Shown here: positions 44,760 to 53,599 of the stretch, one piece after another | Numbering within the stretch: the first letter of the stretch is position 1 | How the letters are laid out: each line of letters begins with the position of its first letter | DNA from: Nevskiaceae bacterium | Lineage (GTDB): Bacteria > Pseudomonadota > Gammaproteobacteria > Nevskiales > Nevskiaceae | NCBI GenBank assembly: GCA_008012115.1 | Contig: SSEB01000003.1 | Location: 434,001 to 498,000, forward strand | DNA: 64,000 nucleotides | Direction of reading: 5' to 3' | The notes under the pieces: model-generated | Told to the model about the DNA's origin: nothing | What the model saw: the letters and a program-made list of their open reading frames with translations, nothing else | Database searches by the model: none | Program-made: the position numbers and the translations under genes

Positions 44760-45827
44760 TCAGTGCGCCGCGGCCTGCGCGTAGGGCTTGAGTGGCGGCT
44801 CGCTGCCGGTCAGATGCGGATCGGGGGCGCCGGTGGCGACATCGCCCTGCAGGATGGTCAGCAGCGCCGGCACGCCGGCGCCGGCCAGGGCCGGGTTGGC
44901 GATGATCGGGACGTTGAGGCACACCTGGGCCGGGTCGATGCGCGCCGGATCGGCCGGGCCGGCGTGTTCGATGGCATCGAGCGCCAGCGCGAAGGCCAGC
45001 GAGTCGACGGTGCCGATGGTGACGTGATCGACGATCTGCTGCGGGCAGACGTTCTGCAGCAGGATATTGGCGACCTTGGGATTGTTCTGCTGCCAGTCCA
45101 GCGCCGCGGTCGGCACCGGCACGGCCGGCTGCACCAGTTCGTCGGTGAGCGTGTAGAGGTTGGTGTAGTCGATGTCACCCGGGGTTTCGTCGCCGGCATT
45201 GAGCGCGCCGACGAACTGCGAGCCGGGCGTGAACTGGTAGAACGCCGCCGGCAGCAGGCCCACCGGCAGGGCGCCGAGGCCCAGCTGCTGTTCCAGCGTT
45301 GCTGGCGAGGCAATGAGGGTGCCGTGGTGAGGGCCGGCCTGCATCACGAAATCCGCGACCGCCGCCCGCGCCGACGGCCACCACTTGAGCGCCCAGCGCG
45401 GCATGGTGGCGCCCTGGCTGTGGCCGATCATCGCCAGCTTGCGGCCGGTCCTGGCATGCAGGCGGCGCAGGGCGTTGACCACGTACTCGGCCGAGATCTG
45501 CTGGTCGCCGAGGCCGCGGTCCGGGTAGGTCACGGCGCAGACGTCGTAGCCGCGCGCCGACAGCAGCGGGATGTAGTTCCACTCGTACTGCTCCTGCCCG
45601 GCGGTGAAGGTGCCGTGCACCAGCAGCACCGCCGGCTTGTCCGGATGCGTGAAGGCGGTGCAATGCAGCGCGGCGTCGAGCGTGTCCTGCGGCGTCGTCA
45701 GCGCCGGCTCGTCCGGGAATTCGGACTTGGCGCCGGTGATGCCGCTGGCGGATGATGGCGAGGAAGCGCCGCCGCAGGCATTCAGCAGCAGGGCGCTCAG
45801 GACGACGGGGAGGGCAAGGGTTTTCAT
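44760..45827 (-). CDS. Lipoprotein lipase/alpha-beta hydrolase
   Basis: The 355-residue protein has a lipoprotein signal (MKTLALPVVLSALLLNAC, lipidated Cys18) followed by a Ser/Gly linker. The fold shows LLVHGTFTAG (oxyanion region) and the nucleophile elbow GHSQG in KLAMIGHSQGATMPRW. It resembles secreted lipases that act on triacylglycerols or long-chain esters. It is probably anchored in the outer membrane, where it could release fatty acids for the catabolic genes around it. Confidence 0.87.
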   Translation of the reverse strand: MKTLALPVVLSALLLNACGGASSPSSASGITGAKSEFPDEPALTTPQDTLDAALHCTAFTHPDKPAVLLVHGTFTAGQEQYEWNYIPLLSARGYDVCAVTYPDRGLGDQQISAEYVVNALRRLHARTGRKLAMIGHSQGATMPRWALKWWPSARAAVADFVMQAGPHHGTLIASPATLEQQLGLGALPVGLLPAAFYQFTPGSQFVGALNAGDETPGDIDYTNLYTLTDELVQPAVPVPTAALDWQQNNPKVANILLQNVCPQQIVDHVTIGTVDSLAFALALDAIEHAGPADPARIDPAQVCLNVPIIANPALAGAGVPALLTILQGDVATGAPDPHLTGSEPPLKPYAQAAAH

Positions 45828-45901
45828 GGCGCGGACCTCGAACGATGCGCCAGTGTCGGCGCTCGCCGCGTCGGCGCCCTCCGCCGTTCGGAGGAGACGG
45901 A

Positions 45902-46147
45902 TCAGCGCCGCCGACGCCGCGCCAGCAGGCGCTCCGGCGTGATGCCGCGCCGGCTCATCGTGGCCAGGTGCGCATGGCCGCGCTCGGTGAGCTGGAAGCC
46001 GCCGTAGTCATCGGCTGAGATCAGGCGGTCGGCCGACAGGGTCTTGAGCAGGTCCGCCGACACCGGCGTGGCGGCCGCGCCGCTGCGCTGCGCCTCGCGC
46101 AGGGCGTGCAGGGCCAGTACTTCTTCGTCGCGGCGCAGGGCGCACAT
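45902..46147 (-). CDS. Small hypothetical protein, possible winged helix
   Basis: The 81-residue protein contains a pattern reminiscent of a small winged helix (VSADLLKTLSADRLISADDYGGFQLTERGHAHL) and ends in an Arg-rich tail. It diverges from the universal stress gene, with an FNR/ANR box between them. I recognise no named family; coding status is likely but not certain. Confidence 0.5.
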   Translation of the reverse strand: MCALRRDEEVLALHALREAQRSGAAATPVSADLLKTLSADRLISADDYGGFQLTERGHAHLATMSRRGITPERLLARRRRR

Positions 46148-46204
46148 GGGCGTTCTCGGTCATCGGGCTGGCATCCAGTGTCGGCATCGGGCGGGCCAGG
46201 CGCC

Positions 46205-46218
46205 TTGATCCGGATCAA
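46205..46218. promoter_or_regulatory. Perfect FNR/ANR box
   Basis: TTGATCCGGATCAA matches the FNR/ANR consensus TTGAT-n4-ATCAA exactly and lies inside a longer perfect palindrome (46201-46222). It is 58 bp from the 46277 start and a similar distance from the divergent start at 46147. Activation at low oxygen of the universal stress gene and the genes behind it is the likely role; Anr control of usp genes is known in Pseudomonas. Confidence 0.85.
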
Positions 46219-46276
46219 GGCGTGGCCAGCGCCGTGCGCCCAAGCTGGCGTCACGATCCCACCATCCCGATGCGCC

Positions 46277-47209
46277 ATGGCTCACTACACCCGAATCCTC
46301 CTGCTGGCCGACCCCTCGCTGCAGCGCACGCCCGCGCTCGACGCGGCGGCGCGCATGGCCAAGGCCGCTGGTGCGCGGCTGCACATCAACGTGTTCGACG
46401 CCAGCGACACCATCGCCGCCATGAAGTGGATGCAGCCGGATCTGGCGCAGCCGGCGATGGACGCCTACACCGAGGTGCGCCGCGCCTGGGCGGTGACCGA
46501 GGCACAGGTCTTGCAGGCGCAGGGCATCGACGCGGTGGGCGACGCCGCCTGGGCGCGTCCGGCGATCGACGAGATGCTGGAACAGATCGGTGAGTTGAAG
46601 CCGGACCTGGTGATCAAGGACGTGCATCACGAGCCGGCGCTGCGCCGCATCTTCCTGACGCCGCTGGACTGGCAGCTGCTGCGCCAGTGTCCGGCGCAGT
46701 TGCTGCTGGTCAACAGCGCCGCCGCCGTCCCGCCACGGCGCGTGCTGGCGGCCATCGATCCGGTGCGCGGCGGTCCGGGCGGCCACGATTTCAACCGCAA
46801 GATCGTGCAGGACGCGCTGGGCTTCGCGATCCAGTGCGATGCCGAACTGCACCTGGTCACCGCCTTCGATGCCGCCGTGCTGACTGGCTTCGGCGCGGCG
46901 GAGGCCGGCGCCGTCGTCACCACGGAGCTGTTCGAAACCCTGCGCGACAGTCACCGGCAGGTGTTCGACGAGGTGGCGGACGCCTACGGCGTGCCCGCGG
47001 GGCGGCGCCATTTCCTCTACGGTCCGCCGGCCGCGGCCATCGCCGAGTTCGCCGGCCAGCACCACACCGACGTGATCGCGGTCGGCGCCAGCTCGCGTCA
47101 CGGCGTCGAGCGCTTCCTGCTGGGCTCGACCGCGGAATCACTGTGCGAGAACGCACCCTGCAACCTGTTGGCGATCAAGCCGGAGGGATTCGCAGCCGCC
47201 GGCGCCTGA
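46277..47209 (+). CDS. Tandem universal stress protein (UspE-like)
   Basis: The 310-residue protein has two Usp domains, about 1-150 (HYTRILLLADPSLQRTPALD, CPAQLLLVNS) and 155-300 (PRRVLAAIDPVRGG, DVIAVGASSRHGVERFLLGS, CNLLAIKPEG). The second domain has a partial ATP-binding G-x2-G-x9-GS pattern in GASSRHGVERFLLGSTAE. It is preceded by a perfect FNR/ANR box and followed 43 bp later by a deacetylase gene. A role in low-oxygen or stress survival is likely. Confidence 0.92.
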   Translation: MAHYTRILLLADPSLQRTPALDAAARMAKAAGARLHINVFDASDTIAAMKWMQPDLAQPAMDAYTEVRRAWAVTEAQVLQAQGIDAVGDAAWARPAIDEMLEQIGELKPDLVIKDVHHEPALRRIFLTPLDWQLLRQCPAQLLLVNSAAAVPPRRVLAAIDPVRGGPGGHDFNRKIVQDALGFAIQCDAELHLVTAFDAAVLTGFGAAEAGAVVTTELFETLRDSHRQVFDEVADAYGVPAGRRHFLYGPPAAAIAEFAGQHHTDVIAVGASSRHGVERFLLGSTAESLCENAPCNLLAIKPEGFAAAGA

Positions 47210-47252
47210 CGCTAGCATGTCCATCTCCCGCTGCTGGAGTTGAACGCCGCAC

Positions 47253-48194
47253 ATGAAGAGCTACCGGCCGGTCGCCTGGATCACGCATCCCGCCTGCGCG
47301 CTGCACGACATGGGCGCCGATCACCCGGAGTCGCCGCGCCGACTCGCGGCCATCGAGGATCGCCTGCTGGTCGCCGGCCTCAAGGATTTTCTCCTGCAAT
47401 GCGAGGCGCCGCGCGCGCCGGAGGAATCCTTGGCGCGGGTGCACGATGCAGGGCACGTGCGCCGCATCCTCGATGCCGACACGCGCGAGGGCGAGGTGCA
47501 GATCGACGGCGACACGCTGATGAACCGTCACAGTCACGAAGCCGCGCTGCGTGCCGCCGGCGCCGGGCTGCTGGCCGTGGACCTGGTGATGAGCGACCGC
47601 GCCGGCCTCGCCTTCTGCGCGGTGCGCCCGCCGGGCCATCACGCCGAGCGCGCGCGTGCGATGGGCTTCTGCCTGTTCAACAACATCGCCGTGGCGGCGG
47701 CACATGCGCTGGCGCGCGGCCTGACACGCGTGGCGATCCTCGATTTCGACCTGCACTACGGCAATGGCACCGCCGACATTTTCAAGTCCGACCGCCGTGT
47801 GCTGCTGTGCTCCACCTATCAGCACCCGCTGTATCCGCACTGGGCCGGGATTCCGGGGGCCGACAACCTGCTCGACGTGCCGCTGCCGGCCGGCACCGGC
47901 AGCCGCGAGTTCCGCGCCGCCGTCGCCGACCGCTGGCTGCCGGCGCTGGAGCGTTTCCAGCCGGAACTGCTGCTGGTCTCCGCCGGCTTCGATGCCCACA
48001 TGGCCGATCCGCTGGGCGACCTGTGCCTGAGCACGGACGACTATCGCTGGCTGGGCACGGTCATCCAGGGCGTTGCCGACGCCTGCTGCCAGGGACGCGT
48101 GGTCGCCATGCTCGAAGGCGGCTACGAGCTGCACGCGCTGGCGCGCAGCGTCGAGGCCTTCCTGACACCTTTCGTCGGCGAACTGCCGGTATGA
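47253..48194 (+). CDS. Histone-deacetylase-family protein (AcuC-like deacetylase)
   Basis: The 313-residue protein shows class II HDAC-like motifs: HPESPRRLAAIEDRL, RPPGHHAERARAMGFC with the catalytic His pair, DFDLHYGNGT with zinc-binding Asp and His, and SAGFDAHMADPLGDL with the third zinc ligand. Bacterial members deacetylate proteins (AcuC) or polyamines. Its stop overlaps the ATG of a Pat-type acetyltransferase (ATGA), so an acetylation/deacetylation pair is likely. It follows the universal stress gene. Confidence 0.88.
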   Translation: MKSYRPVAWITHPACALHDMGADHPESPRRLAAIEDRLLVAGLKDFLLQCEAPRAPEESLARVHDAGHVRRILDADTREGEVQIDGDTLMNRHSHEAALRAAGAGLLAVDLVMSDRAGLAFCAVRPPGHHAERARAMGFCLFNNIAVAAAHALARGLTRVAILDFDLHYGNGTADIFKSDRRVLLCSTYQHPLYPHWAGIPGADNLLDVPLPAGTGSREFRAAVADRWLPALERFQPELLLVSAGFDAHMADPLGDLCLSTDDYRWLGTVIQGVADACCQGRVVAMLEGGYELHALARSVEAFLTPFVGELPV

Positions 48195-50500
48195 CGGTCC
48201 GCAATCTCGAGGCGCTGTTCCGCGCGCGGCGGGTCACCGTGCTGGGTGCTGCGCAGGGCGCCGCGCAGGATTGTCTGATGACGCATCTCGCGCGCAGCGT
48301 CGCCGACGGCGGTCTCGTGCGGGAGGAGGCCGCGGACGATGCCGCCACCGGCAGCGAGGCCGCGGTCGCGGTGGTGCTGGATGCCGCCGCGATCGACGTC
48401 GATGGCATCGACCGGCTCGCCGCGCGCGGCTACCGCGCGCTGCTCTGGGCCAGCGGCACGGCGCCGTCGCAGGCCGTGCTCTCGGCCGCGCGTCCCTACG
48501 CGATGCGTGTGCTCGGCGCCCGCAGCGCCGGTTTCTTCAGCGCGCGGCCGGCGCTCAACCTGACCGCGTTTCCGCTGGCGCCGCCGGCCGGGCGCATCGC
48601 GCTGATCGCGCAGTCGCAGTCCATCGCCGCCGCCGCGGTGGACTGGGCGGTGGAGCGCAACATCGGCCTGTCGTGGATGGCGGTGACCGGTGCCGAGTCC
48701 GATATCGATGTCGGCGACCTGCTCGACTTCGCCGCGCTCGATCCCGGCACGCGCGCGGTGATGGTGCAGGTCGGCCGTATCCGCGACGCGCGCAAGTTCA
48801 TGTCCGCGGCGCGCGCCGCCTCGCGTCTGAAGCCGACCATGGTCCTGCAGACGCCGACCGGCGAGGACACGTCGGCGCTCGATCCGGTGAAGTCCGCGGC
48901 CTTCATGCGCGCCGGCCTGGTGGAATGCGGCAGCCTCGGCGGCATGTTCGACGGCCTGGCGGCGCTGGAGCGCCTGCAGGCGCCGGAGCATGGGCATGTC
49001 GCGATTCTCGCCAACGGCGCCGGCATCTGCGCCCTGGCGGCGCATGCGGTGACCGCGCAGGGACTGGCGGTGGCGCCGCTGGCACCGCCGGTGCGCACGC
49101 AACTGGACGCGCTGATCCCTGGCGTGCGTTGTGTCGGCGGCGGCGTCGACGCTGGCACCGCGACGTCGGAGCAGCTGGTGGCCGCCGCCAAGCTGCTGAT
49201 GCAGACGACCGGCGACGGCGCCGTGCTGTTCGTGCACAGCCCGCTCGCCGGCCAGAAGCAGGACGCCATCGCGCAGGCGCTGTCGCAGGCCGGGCTCGAC
49301 GAGCGTCTGGTCACGGTCTGGCTGGGCCTGCATACCGCGCTGCCGGCGCGGCGCAGCAGCGCGCTGGCGCGTCACGCCACCTTCTCGGCCATCGGCGACG
49401 CGGTGCGCGCGATCCGTTTCCGCGTGCAGTACGCGCGCACGCGCGAAATGCTGATGCGCACGCCGCCCAAGGCGGCGCTGGCGCGACCGCCAAGTGAAAC
49501 GCCGGACGCCGCGCGCATCCAGCGCCTGGCCGCGCGCGGCGGCGAACTGGCCGGTGCGGCGGCGCTGGAGTTCCTGCGCACGCGCGGCATGGCGCTGGGC
49601 GCGGCGGTGCGTGCGATGCCGGATCTGCAGGTCACGGCCTTCCGGCATGCCGAGATGGGCGCGGTCGTGGGTCTGCAGGCGCTGTTCTCCGGCGCGGGCG
49701 GCCGCGCCGCCTACGGCCTGCCGCCGCTGGACCCGCTGCTGGCTGCGCGCATGGCGGAGGATGCGGGCCTGACCCGCGTCGCCGCCGATGCGCCGGTGCT
49801 CGACCTGCTGGTCCGCGCCGGCCAGATCATCGCCAGCGAGGCGGCGCTGTCGTCGCTCAACCTGCCGCTGGCCATCGCCGCCGACGGCACCCCGGCGCCG
49901 GCGGGCGTAGCGCGACTGCAGTGGCACGCCGACGTGCCATCGGCGCGGCGCCGCCTGGCGCTGGCGCCGTACCCCGATCATTTCTCGCACATCTATCGCA
50001 CGGCGCGCGGCGAGGATTACATCGTGCGGCCGGTGCGTCCCGCCGACGAGCCGGCGCTGCTGCACCTGCTGCAGAGCCTGGACGCGGAGGAAGTGCGCCT
50101 GCGCTTCTTCACCCACATCCGGCACTTCTCGCACGACATGGCGGCGCGCATGACGCAGATCGACTACGACCGCGAGATGGCGCTGGTGGTGGCGCGGGCA
50201 TCGCGGCCGGACGAGGTGGCGGGTATCGGCACCATCGTCGCCGATCCGGACAAGGTGATCGCCGAATACGCGATCCTCGTTCATCACGATCACATCCGGC
50301 AGGGGCTGGGTCGGCACCTGATGGAGTGCCTGCTGGGCGCGGCGCGTGCCTACGGCATCCAGCGCGTGCGCGGCGAGGTGTTGAGCGAGAACGCGGCGAT
50401 GCTCAATCTCGTGCGCAATCTCGGCTTCTCGGTCCGCGCCGTCGAGGACGACCCGGGCTGCCGCGTGGTCGAGATCGCGCTGGAGCCACCGCCGGAGTAG
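48191..50500 (+). CDS. Pat-type protein: NDP-forming acyl-CoA synthetase-like region plus GNAT
   Basis: The 769-residue protein has an acyl-CoA synthetase (NDP-forming)-like region (IALIAQSQSIAAAAVDWA, GHVAILANGAGICALAA). A C-terminal GNAT domain (about residues 615-769: YIVRPVRPADEPALLHLL, HDHIRQGLGRHLMECLLGAA with the acetyl-CoA loop) follows. This is the Pat/PatZ domain order, in which the synthetase part is usually inactive and regulatory. The N-terminal CoA-binding region is diverged. It is translationally coupled to a deacetylase. Likely targets are acyl-CoA synthetases. Confidence 0.87.
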   Translation: MTVRNLEALFRARRVTVLGAAQGAAQDCLMTHLARSVADGGLVREEAADDAATGSEAAVAVVLDAAAIDVDGIDRLAARGYRALLWASGTAPSQAVLSAARPYAMRVLGARSAGFFSARPALNLTAFPLAPPAGRIALIAQSQSIAAAAVDWAVERNIGLSWMAVTGAESDIDVGDLLDFAALDPGTRAVMVQVGRIRDARKFMSAARAASRLKPTMVLQTPTGEDTSALDPVKSAAFMRAGLVECGSLGGMFDGLAALERLQAPEHGHVAILANGAGICALAAHAVTAQGLAVAPLAPPVRTQLDALIPGVRCVGGGVDAGTATSEQLVAAAKLLMQTTGDGAVLFVHSPLAGQKQDAIAQALSQAGLDERLVTVWLGLHTALPARRSSALARHATFSAIGDAVRAIRFRVQYARTREMLMRTPPKAALARPPSETPDAARIQRLAARGGELAGAAALEFLRTRGMALGAAVRAMPDLQVTAFRHAEMGAVVGLQALFSGAGGRAAYGLPPLDPLLAARMAEDAGLTRVAADAPVLDLLVRAGQIIASEAALSSLNLPLAIAADGTPAPAGVARLQWHADVPSARRRLALAPYPDHFSHIYRTARGEDYIVRPVRPADEPALLHLLQSLDAEEVRLRFFTHIRHFSHDMAARMTQIDYDREMALVVARASRPDEVAGIGTIVADPDKVIAEYAILVHHDHIRQGLGRHLMECLLGAARAYGIQRVRGEVLSENAAMLNLVRNLGFSVRAVEDDPGCRVVEIALEPPPE

Positions 50501-50506
50501 CGGCGG

Positions 50507-50932
50507 TCACTCGCCGCGGTAGGTCACCCAGTTCTTCTCGGTCTCGCGCAGGCGCACCTCGTGCAGCGTGGCGCCGTAGTGCACATGCAGCACGCGCCAG
50601 AACAGCACCACGAGGTTCTCGGCGGTGGGGTTGATGCCGCGCGTCAGCAGCGCGTCGTGGTTGAGATGGCGGTGATCGATGACATCGACGATCAGCTCGT
50701 GCATCACGTCGCGGATCTGCTTGAGATTGACCACGATGCCGGTCTTCGGATCGACCGGCCCGCGCAGCGTCACTTCCAGCACGTAGTTGTGGCCGTGGCC
50801 GTGGTCGTAGGCGCAGGGGCCGAACAGCGCGCGGTTCTCGGCATCGCTGAGATCGTCGGCCCACAGCCGGTGAGCGGCGGAGAACGTCTCGCGGCGCGTG
50901 AGGTAAACGATGGGGGATTTCTCAGTTGTCAT
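50507..50932 (-). CDS. 6-pyruvoyl-tetrahydropterin synthase (PTPS), eukaryote-like
   Basis: The 141-residue protein has zinc ligands His21, His46 and His48 (FSAAHRL, HGHNY), nucleophile Cys40 (FGPC) and a C-terminal ETEKN with Glu130. The pattern (FSAxHRL, LSDxEN, LFGxC, GHGHNY, DPxTGxVxNL, TAENxxV, ETxxNxVxYxGE) follows mammalian PTPS more closely than bacterial QueD. PTPS converts dihydroneopterin triphosphate to 6-pyruvoyl-tetrahydropterin. Its start overlaps an SDR by 11 bp. It converges with the Pat-type gene, 6 bp apart. Confidence 0.87.
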   Translation of the reverse strand: MTTEKSPIVYLTRRETFSAAHRLWADDLSDAENRALFGPCAYDHGHGHNYVLEVTLRGPVDPKTGIVVNLKQIRDVMHELIVDVIDHRHLNHDALLTRGINPTAENLVVLFWRVLHVHYGATLHEVRLRETEKNWVTYRGE

Positions 50933-51691: not shown

Positions 51692-53599
51692 TTACGGTTG
51701 CGTCTTGGCGTAACCCAGTGTCTGCAGCGCCGCTCCGACCTCTTCCAGGGTGCGCGGATCGTCGATGGTGGCCGGCACCGCGTGCGGCTGGCTGTCGGCG
51801 ATGGCGCGCATGGTGGCGCGCAGCACCTTGCCGGAGCGCGTCTTGGGCAGTCGCGCCACCACCGCCACCTGCTTGAAGGCGGCGACCGCGCCGATCTGCG
51901 CGCGCACGCGCTCGACCAGCTCGCGGGCGATGGCGTCCGGCGCCTGCTGCACGCCGGCCTTGAGCACCACCAGGCCCACGGGCAGCTGACCTTTCATGGC
52001 GTCGGCGACGCCGATCACCGCGCATTCGGCCACCGCCGGATGCGAGGCCAGCACCTCTTCCATCGCGCCGGTGGACAGGCGATGACCGGCGACGTTGATG
52101 ATGTCGTCGATGCGCGACATGATCCACCAGTAGCCGTCGGTGTCGCGGTAGCCGGCGTCACCGGTGAGGTAATAACCGGGATAGCGGCTCAGATAGTTGT
52201 CACGATAGCCCTGGTCGTTCTGCCACATGGTGCTCAGCGTGCCCGGCGGCAGGGGCAGCTGGATGACGACGTTGCCGATGTCGCCGTCCTTCACCGCGGC
52301 GCCATTGGCGTCGAGCACGGCAAAGCGGAAGCCCGGCACCGGCATCGTCGCTGAGCCGGGCTTGACCGGCATCGGCGTCAGGCCGTGGCAGTTGGCGATG
52401 GCCGGCCAGCCCAGTTCGGTCTGCCACCAGTGATCGATCACCGGCACTTTCAGCTTGCCCTGCGCCCAGAGGATGGTGTCGGGATCGCAGCGCTCGCCGG
52501 CGAGGTACAGCGTCTTGAATTTCGAGAGATCGTATTGGCGGATCAGCTTGCCGTCCGGGTCTTCCTTCTTGATCGCGCGGAACGCGGTGGGCGCGGTGAA
52601 GAAGGTCTTGACGCCGTGCTGCGCGATCACGCGCCAGAAGGCGCCGGCGTCCGGCGTGCCGACCGGCTTGCCTTCGTAGAGGATCGTGGTGCAGCCCTGC
52701 AGCAGCGGGCCGTAGACGATATAGGAGTGGCCGACGACCCAGCCGACGTCGGAGGCGGCCCAGAACACGTCGCCGGGATCGGTGTCGAACACCGCCTTCA
52801 TCGAGTAGCGCAGCGCCACGGCGTGACCGCCATGATCGCGCACCACGCCCTTGGGCTTGCCGGTGGTGCCGGAGGTGTAGAGCACGTAGAGCGGATCGGT
52901 CGCCGACACCGGCACGCAGTCGGCCGGCGTCGCGGCGGCAACGGCCTGCTGCCAGTCGACGTCGCGGCCTGCCTTCAGCGCGGCCTCGCGCTGCGGCCGC
53001 TGCAGGATGAGGGTGCGCGCAACCTGATGTGTCGCCAGCTCCAGCGCCTGATCCAGCAGCGGCTTGTAGTCGATCACGCGGCCCGGCTCGATGCCGCAGG
53101 AGGCCGACACCACCAGCACCGGCTCGGCGGCGTCGATGCGCTTGGCCAGCTCCGGCGCGGCGAAACCGCCGAACACCACCGAATGCACCGCACCGATGCG
53201 CGCGCAGGCCAGCATCGCAACTGCCGCCTCCGGCACCATCGGCATGTAGATCACCACGCGGTCGCCGCGCTGCACGCCGTTGGCGCGCAGGGCGCCGGCG
53301 AAGCGTGCGACGGCGTCGCGCAGTTCGCGATAGGTGAAGGTCTTCTGCGTGCCTGTGAGCGGGCTGTCGTAGATCAGTGCAGCCTGCTCGGCGCGGCCGC
53401 CCTCGATGTGACGGTCCAGCGCGTTGTAGCAGGTGTTGAACTCGGCGCCGGCAAACCAGCGGTAGAACGGCGCCTGGCTAACGTCGAGCACCTGGGTCCA
53501 CGGCCGGTGCCAGTGCAGGCCCGCAGCCTGCTCGGCCCAGAAGGCCTCCGGTTCGGCCGCGGCGCGGCGGTAATCGCGGGCGTAGGCGCTTTCGGTCAT
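51692..53599 (-). CDS. prpE: Propionyl-CoA synthetase (PrpE-like)
   Basis: The 635-residue AMP-forming synthetase has the acetyl-/propionyl-CoA synthetase N-terminal region (EAFWAEQAAGLHWHRPWTQV), YTSGTTGKPKGVVRDHGGH, WWQTELGWP and the hinge and C-terminal domain. The C-terminal catalytic Lys591 lies in PKTRSGKVLR, which fits the recognition motif acetylated by Pat enzymes. It resembles PrpE more than Acs. It would recover propionate from odd-chain, branched-chain or steroid side-chain breakdown. An esterase gene lies 21 bp upstream. Confidence 0.87.
   Translation of the reverse strand: MTESAYARDYRRAAAEPEAFWAEQAAGLHWHRPWTQVLDVSQAPFYRWFAGAEFNTCYNALDRHIEGGRAEQAALIYDSPLTGTQKTFTYRELRDAVARFAGALRANGVQRGDRVVIYMPMVPEAAVAMLACARIGAVHSVVFGGFAAPELAKRIDAAEPVLVVSASCGIEPGRVIDYKPLLDQALELATHQVARTLILQRPQREAALKAGRDVDWQQAVAAATPADCVPVSATDPLYVLYTSGTTGKPKGVVRDHGGHAVALRYSMKAVFDTDPGDVFWAASDVGWVVGHSYIVYGPLLQGCTTILYEGKPVGTPDAGAFWRVIAQHGVKTFFTAPTAFRAIKKEDPDGKLIRQYDLSKFKTLYLAGERCDPDTILWAQGKLKVPVIDHWWQTELGWPAIANCHGLTPMPVKPGSATMPVPGFRFAVLDANGAAVKDGDIGNVVIQLPLPPGTLSTMWQNDQGYRDNYLSRYPGYYLTGDAGYRDTDGYWWIMSRIDDIINVAGHRLSTGAMEEVLASHPAVAECAVIGVADAMKGQLPVGLVVLKAGVQQAPDAIARELVERVRAQIGAVAAFKQVAVVARLPKTRSGKVLRATMRAIADSQPHAVPATIDDPRTLEEVGAALQTLGYAKTQP

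Follow-up and report, generated by a model that had tools for sequence, protein, structure and literature searches.

Comparison with described acetylation systems

In Bacillus subtilis, the acuABC genes encode a GNAT acetyltransferase and an HDAC-type deacetylase that both act on the acyl-CoA synthetase AcsA, and acsA itself is divergent (PMC8556138). In Rhodopseudomonas palustris, the Pat-type enzyme RpPat and the HDAC-type enzyme LdaA act as writer and eraser on acyl-CoA synthetases including PrpE (PMC6640162). In bacteria, lysine acetylation is usually coupled to carbon status (in E. coli to cAMP-CRP, according to the title of a reference in PMC6640162). Here, we describe a locus in a 64,000-nucleotide stretch of the genome of a Nevskiaceae bacterium (assembly GCA_008012115.1, contig SSEB01000003.1, positions 434,001 to 498,000; the whole stretch is referred to as the window). 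In this locus a perfect FNR-type box precedes three co-directional genes predicted to encode a tandem universal stress protein (usp), an HDAC-type Zn deacetylase (hdac) and a Pat-type lysine acetyltransferase (pat), and we propose that they form a single FNR-controlled operon.

The locus resembles acuABC in that a GNAT acetyltransferase and an HDAC-type deacetylase are co-encoded, in B. subtilis to act on an acyl-CoA synthetase. It differs in that AcuA is not a PatZ-type fusion, AcuB is present and there is no Usp; the available parts of that source make no mention of FNR control. No acuB was found in our locus, and the synthetase gene is on the opposite strand, 1.2 kb further downstream. The likeness to RpPat and LdaA is that of a Pat-type writer and an HDAC-type eraser directed at acyl-CoA synthetases; in contrast, a sirtuin (SrtN) also acts in R. 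palustris, and the accessible text states neither gene linkage nor FNR control. FNR-controlled usp genes are also described (PMC2908626, PMC5934665), but no deacetylase or protein acetyltransferase is named beside them in the portions available. In Burkholderia cenocepacia H111, a 'protein acetyltransferase' (BCAM2710) is elevated in micro-oxia, 19.5-fold as protein and 1.9-fold as RNA (PMC3759415, Table 2); it is likened to Pat by its annotation name only, not by sequence, and the part of the paper at hand names no HDAC partner. Therefore the parts are known, i.e. acuABC, FNR-driven Usp and LdaA/RpPat, but no description of their combination, an FNR-controlled HDAC–Pat operon, was found in the literature searched, which was mostly outside subscription journals and partly in excerpt.

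A perfect FNR-type box precedes usp, hdac and pat

The original prediction placed a perfect TTGAT-N4-ATCAA box before a tandem Usp gene, itself 43 bp before an HDAC-type gene overlapping a Pat-type gene, and each of these elements was borne out (Table 1). The box, TTGATCCGGATCAA, is the sole perfect match within the window, where 0.41 sites with at most one mismatch are expected, and the best site in the 250 bp 5′ of usp was never equalled in 400 first-order Markov resamples. The box is 58 bp from the usp ATG, and the 4 bp shared by hdac and pat read ATGA. Since the flanking lipase-like and 6-pyruvoyl tetrahydropterin synthase family genes are on the opposite strand, usp, hdac and pat form a closed co-directional unit.

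Across the 3.25 Mb of the genome assembly (24 contigs, 94.8% completeness), a scan identified five perfect palindromic boxes, compared with zero matches of the reversed control pattern. One of these precedes hemN (HemN_C, radical SAM) at 58 bp from the ATG, the same distance as at usp. Others were found before a beta-CASP metallo-hydrolase gene and, at L005, between a gene for a KshA-type Rieske oxygenase and a downstream gene that has no Pfam match, and one of the five is inside a coding open reading frame (ORF).

A sigma-70 consensus scan of 45850-50900 returned zero promoters, and a box-to-hexamer gap test was used in its place. The 40 bases 3′ of 18 boxes (four from this genome and 14 from others) were aligned and scored for a hexamer whose second base is A and whose sixth base is T (A2/T6). 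L085 and L093 (two mismatches), L136 and L159, where the sites are distant, and L002, where the box is within a coding ORF, were omitted. Such a hexamer was present at a gap of 22 nt in 10/18 and of 23 nt in 4/18 box promoters, with none at gaps 13-21 or 24-25, against a background of 3% per position. Near copies occur among the promoters of usp1 (three), ggdef (three) and g10 hdac (two), which leaves ∼13 independent cases, nine of which fit. As a control, we scored every box with at most one mismatch in 80 named loci (the best 80 of 515 relatives, where frequencies are not population frequencies), 88 orientations in total; in this set, which includes real promoters, gap 22 gave 11 hexamers and other gaps gave 1 to 7. 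A gap of 22 nt is the spacing of promoters with FNR centred at −41.5. At usp this spacing predicts a transcript start at ∼46253, and taken alone, the usp promoter is very probably FNR-type, judging from box and spacing.

Two further sites were considered. The box at L005 has a −10-like hexamer at gap 23. A second box at our locus, CTGTTGGCGATCAA, which has two mismatches and is inside usp before hdac, was rejected, as by eye the A2/T6 hexamer is absent at gap 22.

The three encoded proteins

The deacetylase matches PF00850, and its best solved match is 5ji5. Residues H129, H130, D166, H168, D247 and Y291 are invariant in 17/17 proteins; we take H129 and H130 to be the His-His dyad, D166, H168 and D247 to be the Zn ligands and Y291 to be the Tyr of HDAC enzymes. 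The protein is predicted to be active as a lysine deacetylase of the classical Zn type.

Pat contains PF13607, a partial TIGR02717 match and a C-terminal GNAT domain (PF00583). Its Glu692 aligned with Glu809 of E. coli PatZ, the catalytic residue there, and was invariant in 17/17. There was no ATP-grasp match in Pfam and no complete ATP-grasp domain, and the stretch between the synthetase-like and GNAT parts is 161 residues, compared with ∼250 in full-length forms. Short Pat proteins were present in all Nevskiales forms measured except L094 and L095, and the Pats of Burkholderia and Paraburkholderia are shortened likewise. The overall fold resembles that of PatZ (PDB 9it0, 9isq), with the predicted structure (pLDDT 84) reaching a TM-score of 0.84 over the query against 9it0. 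In contrast, PatZ has 886 aa (PDB sequence) and a central ATP-grasp part that is ∼90 residues longer. By sequence, we describe this Pat as a conserved short Pat-type variant that has lost ∼90 residues of the ATP-grasp part, and not as PatZ.

Usp has PF00582 in two stretches. It scored 141.8 bits over its full length against the UspE equivalog model (NCBIfam NF008380), which is below the cut-off of 227, and hence it is described only as a UspE-like tandem Usp. On the far side of the box, the divergent ORF was rejected as a part sharing the box, as it had no relatives in the fetched loci (two matches, both the same genome stretch).

Table 1. Positions in the window of the predicted operon and its surroundings
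Feature	Position	Strand	Support
FNR-type box TTGATCCGGATCAA, perfect TTGAT-N4-ATCAA palindrome	46205-46218	+	pattern scan, genome-wide scan, boxes at relatives' loci
−10-like hexamer CAAGCT, 22 nt 3′ of box (class II spacing)	46241-46246	+	box-to-hexamer gap test
usp: tandem universal stress protein, UspE-like, 310 aa	46277-47209	+	
hdac: HDAC-type Zn deacetylase (predicted), 313 aa, catalytic residues conserved	47253-48194	+	
pat: Pat-type lysine acetyltransferase (predicted), 769 aa; NDP-forming acyl-CoA synthetase-like part, shortened ATP-grasp part, C-terminal GNAT	48191-50500	+	
PrpE/AcsA-like acyl-CoA synthetase with PKTRSGK, candidate Pat target, outside operon	51692-53599	-	
Lipase-like gene, 5′ of usp	44760-45827	-	
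6-pyruvoyl tetrahydropterin synthase family gene, 3′ of pat	50507-50932	-	
Divergent 81-aa ORF, ATG 57 bp from far side of FNR box	45902-46147	-	

The candidate regulator and its signal

Similar boxes serve the FNR, FixK and DNR families, which favours a reading where the box is bound by another CRP/FNR-family regulator, of the nitric oxide (NO)-sensing DNR type or the FixK type, and the signal is NO or a FixLJ relay rather than oxygen via an Fe-S cluster. The three families are listed in the available part of PMC2908626. The regulator encoded in this genome (L007, 949-1704) is also preceded by response-regulator-like ORFs (by eye only) and has an atypical Cys pattern, both of which fit that reading. 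However, its gene adjoins hemN, among solved structures it is best matched by FNR-type regulators, and three N-terminal Cys as well as an internal Cys are retained. In addition, of the three Crp-type proteins that the genome encodes, it alone has the recognition helix ETVSR, which is of the FNR type; the helices of the other two are CRP-like. We consider a DNR- or FixK-type reader of the box to be unlikely.

FNR-like genes are also present within a few kb of HDAC–Pat in relatives G010, G012, G014 and G021. The E-value limit of this search misses distant FNR proteins, e.g. in G006, which has a perfect box and no match.

HDAC and Pat are a conserved pair, and boxes recur before it

We searched 61 genomes at E 1e-20, with a Pat match in 37 and an HDAC match in 49, and fetched 35 stretches from relatives for gene-order comparison. 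HDAC was followed by Pat on one strand at 21 loci, one of them truncated by a contig end, and these come from 20 genomes. Other orders among the 35 stretches were long Pat then HDAC (two), Pat without HDAC (five) and HDAC without Pat (seven). HDAC–Pat is thus a conserved pair in Nevskiaceae. In two members of the same family (L094 and L095, in G002 and G015), a full-length Pat that falls elsewhere in the Pat tree precedes HDAC, and at L162 the two genes are divergent. The pair seems to have arisen with each of two Pat types and in either order, and because HDAC is joined with different Pat types, we argue that the two work together.

A box with at most one mismatch was present in 7/20 HDAC–Pat loci with upstream sequence (L070, L071, L073, L074, L075, L076 and L077), counted before HDAC or, in g8, before a co-directional usp or GGDEF gene. 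Two further loci (L072 and L085) have two-mismatch boxes. Judged from these sites, FNR wiring of HDAC–Pat is common, not universal. The g8 order is box-usp, box-GGDEF-usp-hdac-pat, and box-Usp...HDAC-Pat recurs in three g8 species. In g3, g10 and g12, FixL-like and FixJ-like genes are 5′ of HDAC–Pat, together with Hsp20 in g10 (the FixL/FixJ-like genes were recognised through Pfam in L070 and through similarity clusters at the other loci).

These comparisons bear on the possibility that FNR controls usp only, with hdac and pat forming a separate unit expressed mostly from its own promoter. The usp genes of alphaproteobacteria and Herbaspirillum are classical FNR targets (PMC2908626, PMC5934665, as far as available), and in most relatives HDAC–Pat has no adjoining Usp. 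However, the 43-bp gap between usp and hdac contains no terminator-like site, a box with at most one mismatch is directly before HDAC–Pat, with no Usp, in four relatives (L070, L071, L074 and L077), and g8 repeats the gene order with boxes. Control of usp alone is therefore quite improbable.

In L073, L075 and L076, a GGDEF gene with its own FNR-type box sits between two usp genes 5′ of hdac-pat, which suggests that cyclic di-GMP is wired into the same low-oxygen unit.

Beyond Nevskiales, we examined the 80 named loci. Boxes with at most one mismatch were over-represented within 300 bp 5′ of Pat or HDAC–Pat, with seven seen compared with 0.86 expected (Poisson test, with the expectation taken from the remaining sequence of the same loci), and three of the seven were from Nevskiales. 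A perfect box precedes a full-length Pat both in L113, a Caulobacteraceae metagenome-assembled genome (MAG) where Usp and FixLJ-like genes adjoin, and in L119, a betaproteobacterial MAG labelled Bordetella where hemerythrin-type and metal ATPase genes adjoin. The alphaproteobacterial L152 combines a short Pat and a Usp gene with an FNR/FixK-type gene and four perfect boxes. HDAC was near Pat in only 7/80 named loci; the pair therefore belongs mostly to Nevskiales, whereas Pat genes preceded by FNR boxes recur in other groups.

Acetylation machinery and candidate targets

No SIR2 protein was found in the genome of the Nevskiaceae bacterium, while 30/37 genomes searched have one. The genome encodes one HDAC-family protein and one Pat, so that, at 94.8% completeness, no deacetylase or Pat is recognised outside the operon. 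The congener G001 is the reverse, with a sirtuin and no HDAC or Pat match.

The motif PKTRSGK surrounds the lysine that Pat enzymes modify. It is present in 2/3 AcsA-like synthetases of the genome, namely AcsA and the one 3′ of the operon (Table 1), and from this motif the acyl-CoA synthetases appear to be likelier Pat targets than Usp. The synthetase was rejected as a conserved neighbour, as its adjacency does not look conserved: used as a query, it had zero matches in the 35 fetched stretches, and in the named-loci scan one partial match (L127, 32%) among loci with HDAC, Usp or a box. A reading in which the substrate is the co-encoded Usp, acetylated by Pat and deacetylated by HDAC so as to tune the stress protein, is very unlikely. 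A mycobacterial Pat, that of M. smegmatis, is indeed reported to acetylate a Usp, as the original prediction stated (PMC8556138, PMC6640162, in the parts available), and usp, hdac and pat are adjacent here and in g8. However, most HDAC–Pat loci have no neighbouring Usp, the mycobacterial Pat is built differently (a cAMP-binding domain plus GNAT) and the locus gives no support for Usp as a Pat target.

Proposed mechanism and its significance

FNR-type control of usp, hdac and pat as one operon is well supported by the box, the class II spacing, hemN as a positive control, the boxes in relatives and the FixLJ-like, FNR and Usp neighbours. We propose a mechanism in which co-transcription, the oxygen response, the enzyme activities and the targets are predicted from sequence. 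A class II FNR-dependent promoter, with the box centred at −41.5, would drive a single usp-hdac-pat transcript, and upon a drop in oxygen the FNR-type regulator encoded beside hemN would activate it. Usp would contribute to survival under energy stress, Pat would acetylate and silence acyl-CoA synthetases (AcsA, PrpE-like) at the PKTRSGK lysine, and the NAD-independent Zn deacetylase would reverse this acetylation. Silencing by Pat and reversal by HDAC would allow acyl-CoA synthesis to be lowered, and rapidly resumed, under low oxygen, i.e. protein acetylation in the Nevskiaceae bacterium would follow oxygen. We assign this whole explanation, an FNR-driven usp-hdac-pat transcript with Pat and HDAC acting on acyl-CoA synthetases, a probability of roughly 0.7.

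Several observations weigh against this explanation. No box with at most one mismatch was found in 13/20 HDAC–Pat loci, 11 of which do not have even a two-mismatch one, and the closest HDAC relative (L069, 76% identity) has no box of up to two mismatches. The congener G001 has no HDAC match, Pat match or close FNR match. At the promoter, the usp −10 hexamer CAAGCT is weak, and one orientation of the L002 box, a presumed chance match in a coding ORF, likewise shows an A2/T6 hexamer, TACCTT, at gap 22. The Cys spacing of the regulator is C-x5-C-x3-C, compared with C-x2-C-x5-C in 25/28 relatives, so that oxygen sensing by this protein is not assured. Finally, a writer and an eraser on one transcript have no obvious net direction; this arrangement suggests that, at low oxygen, acetylation turns over fast instead of shifting in one direction.

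A broader reading, which we regard as doubtful, is that the whole dedicated lysine acetylation cycle (the only Pat, the only HDAC and no sirtuin) is an FNR-driven hypoxia module, in which the NAD-independent eraser would still work when low oxygen brings NAD+ down, Pat may feed back on FNR, and related wiring would exist in alpha- and betaproteobacteria. The feedback is proposed because acetylation of FnrL in R. sphaeroides lowers its activity (PMC6640162, in the part available).

If true, a conserved writer–eraser pair on an FNR-type promoter would tie lysine acetylation to oxygen. Lacking a full ATP-grasp domain, the short Pat offers a natural test of the role of that domain, and the absence of a sirtuin makes this genome a simple system for asking whether oxygen switches the acetylome by way of the transcription of hdac and pat.

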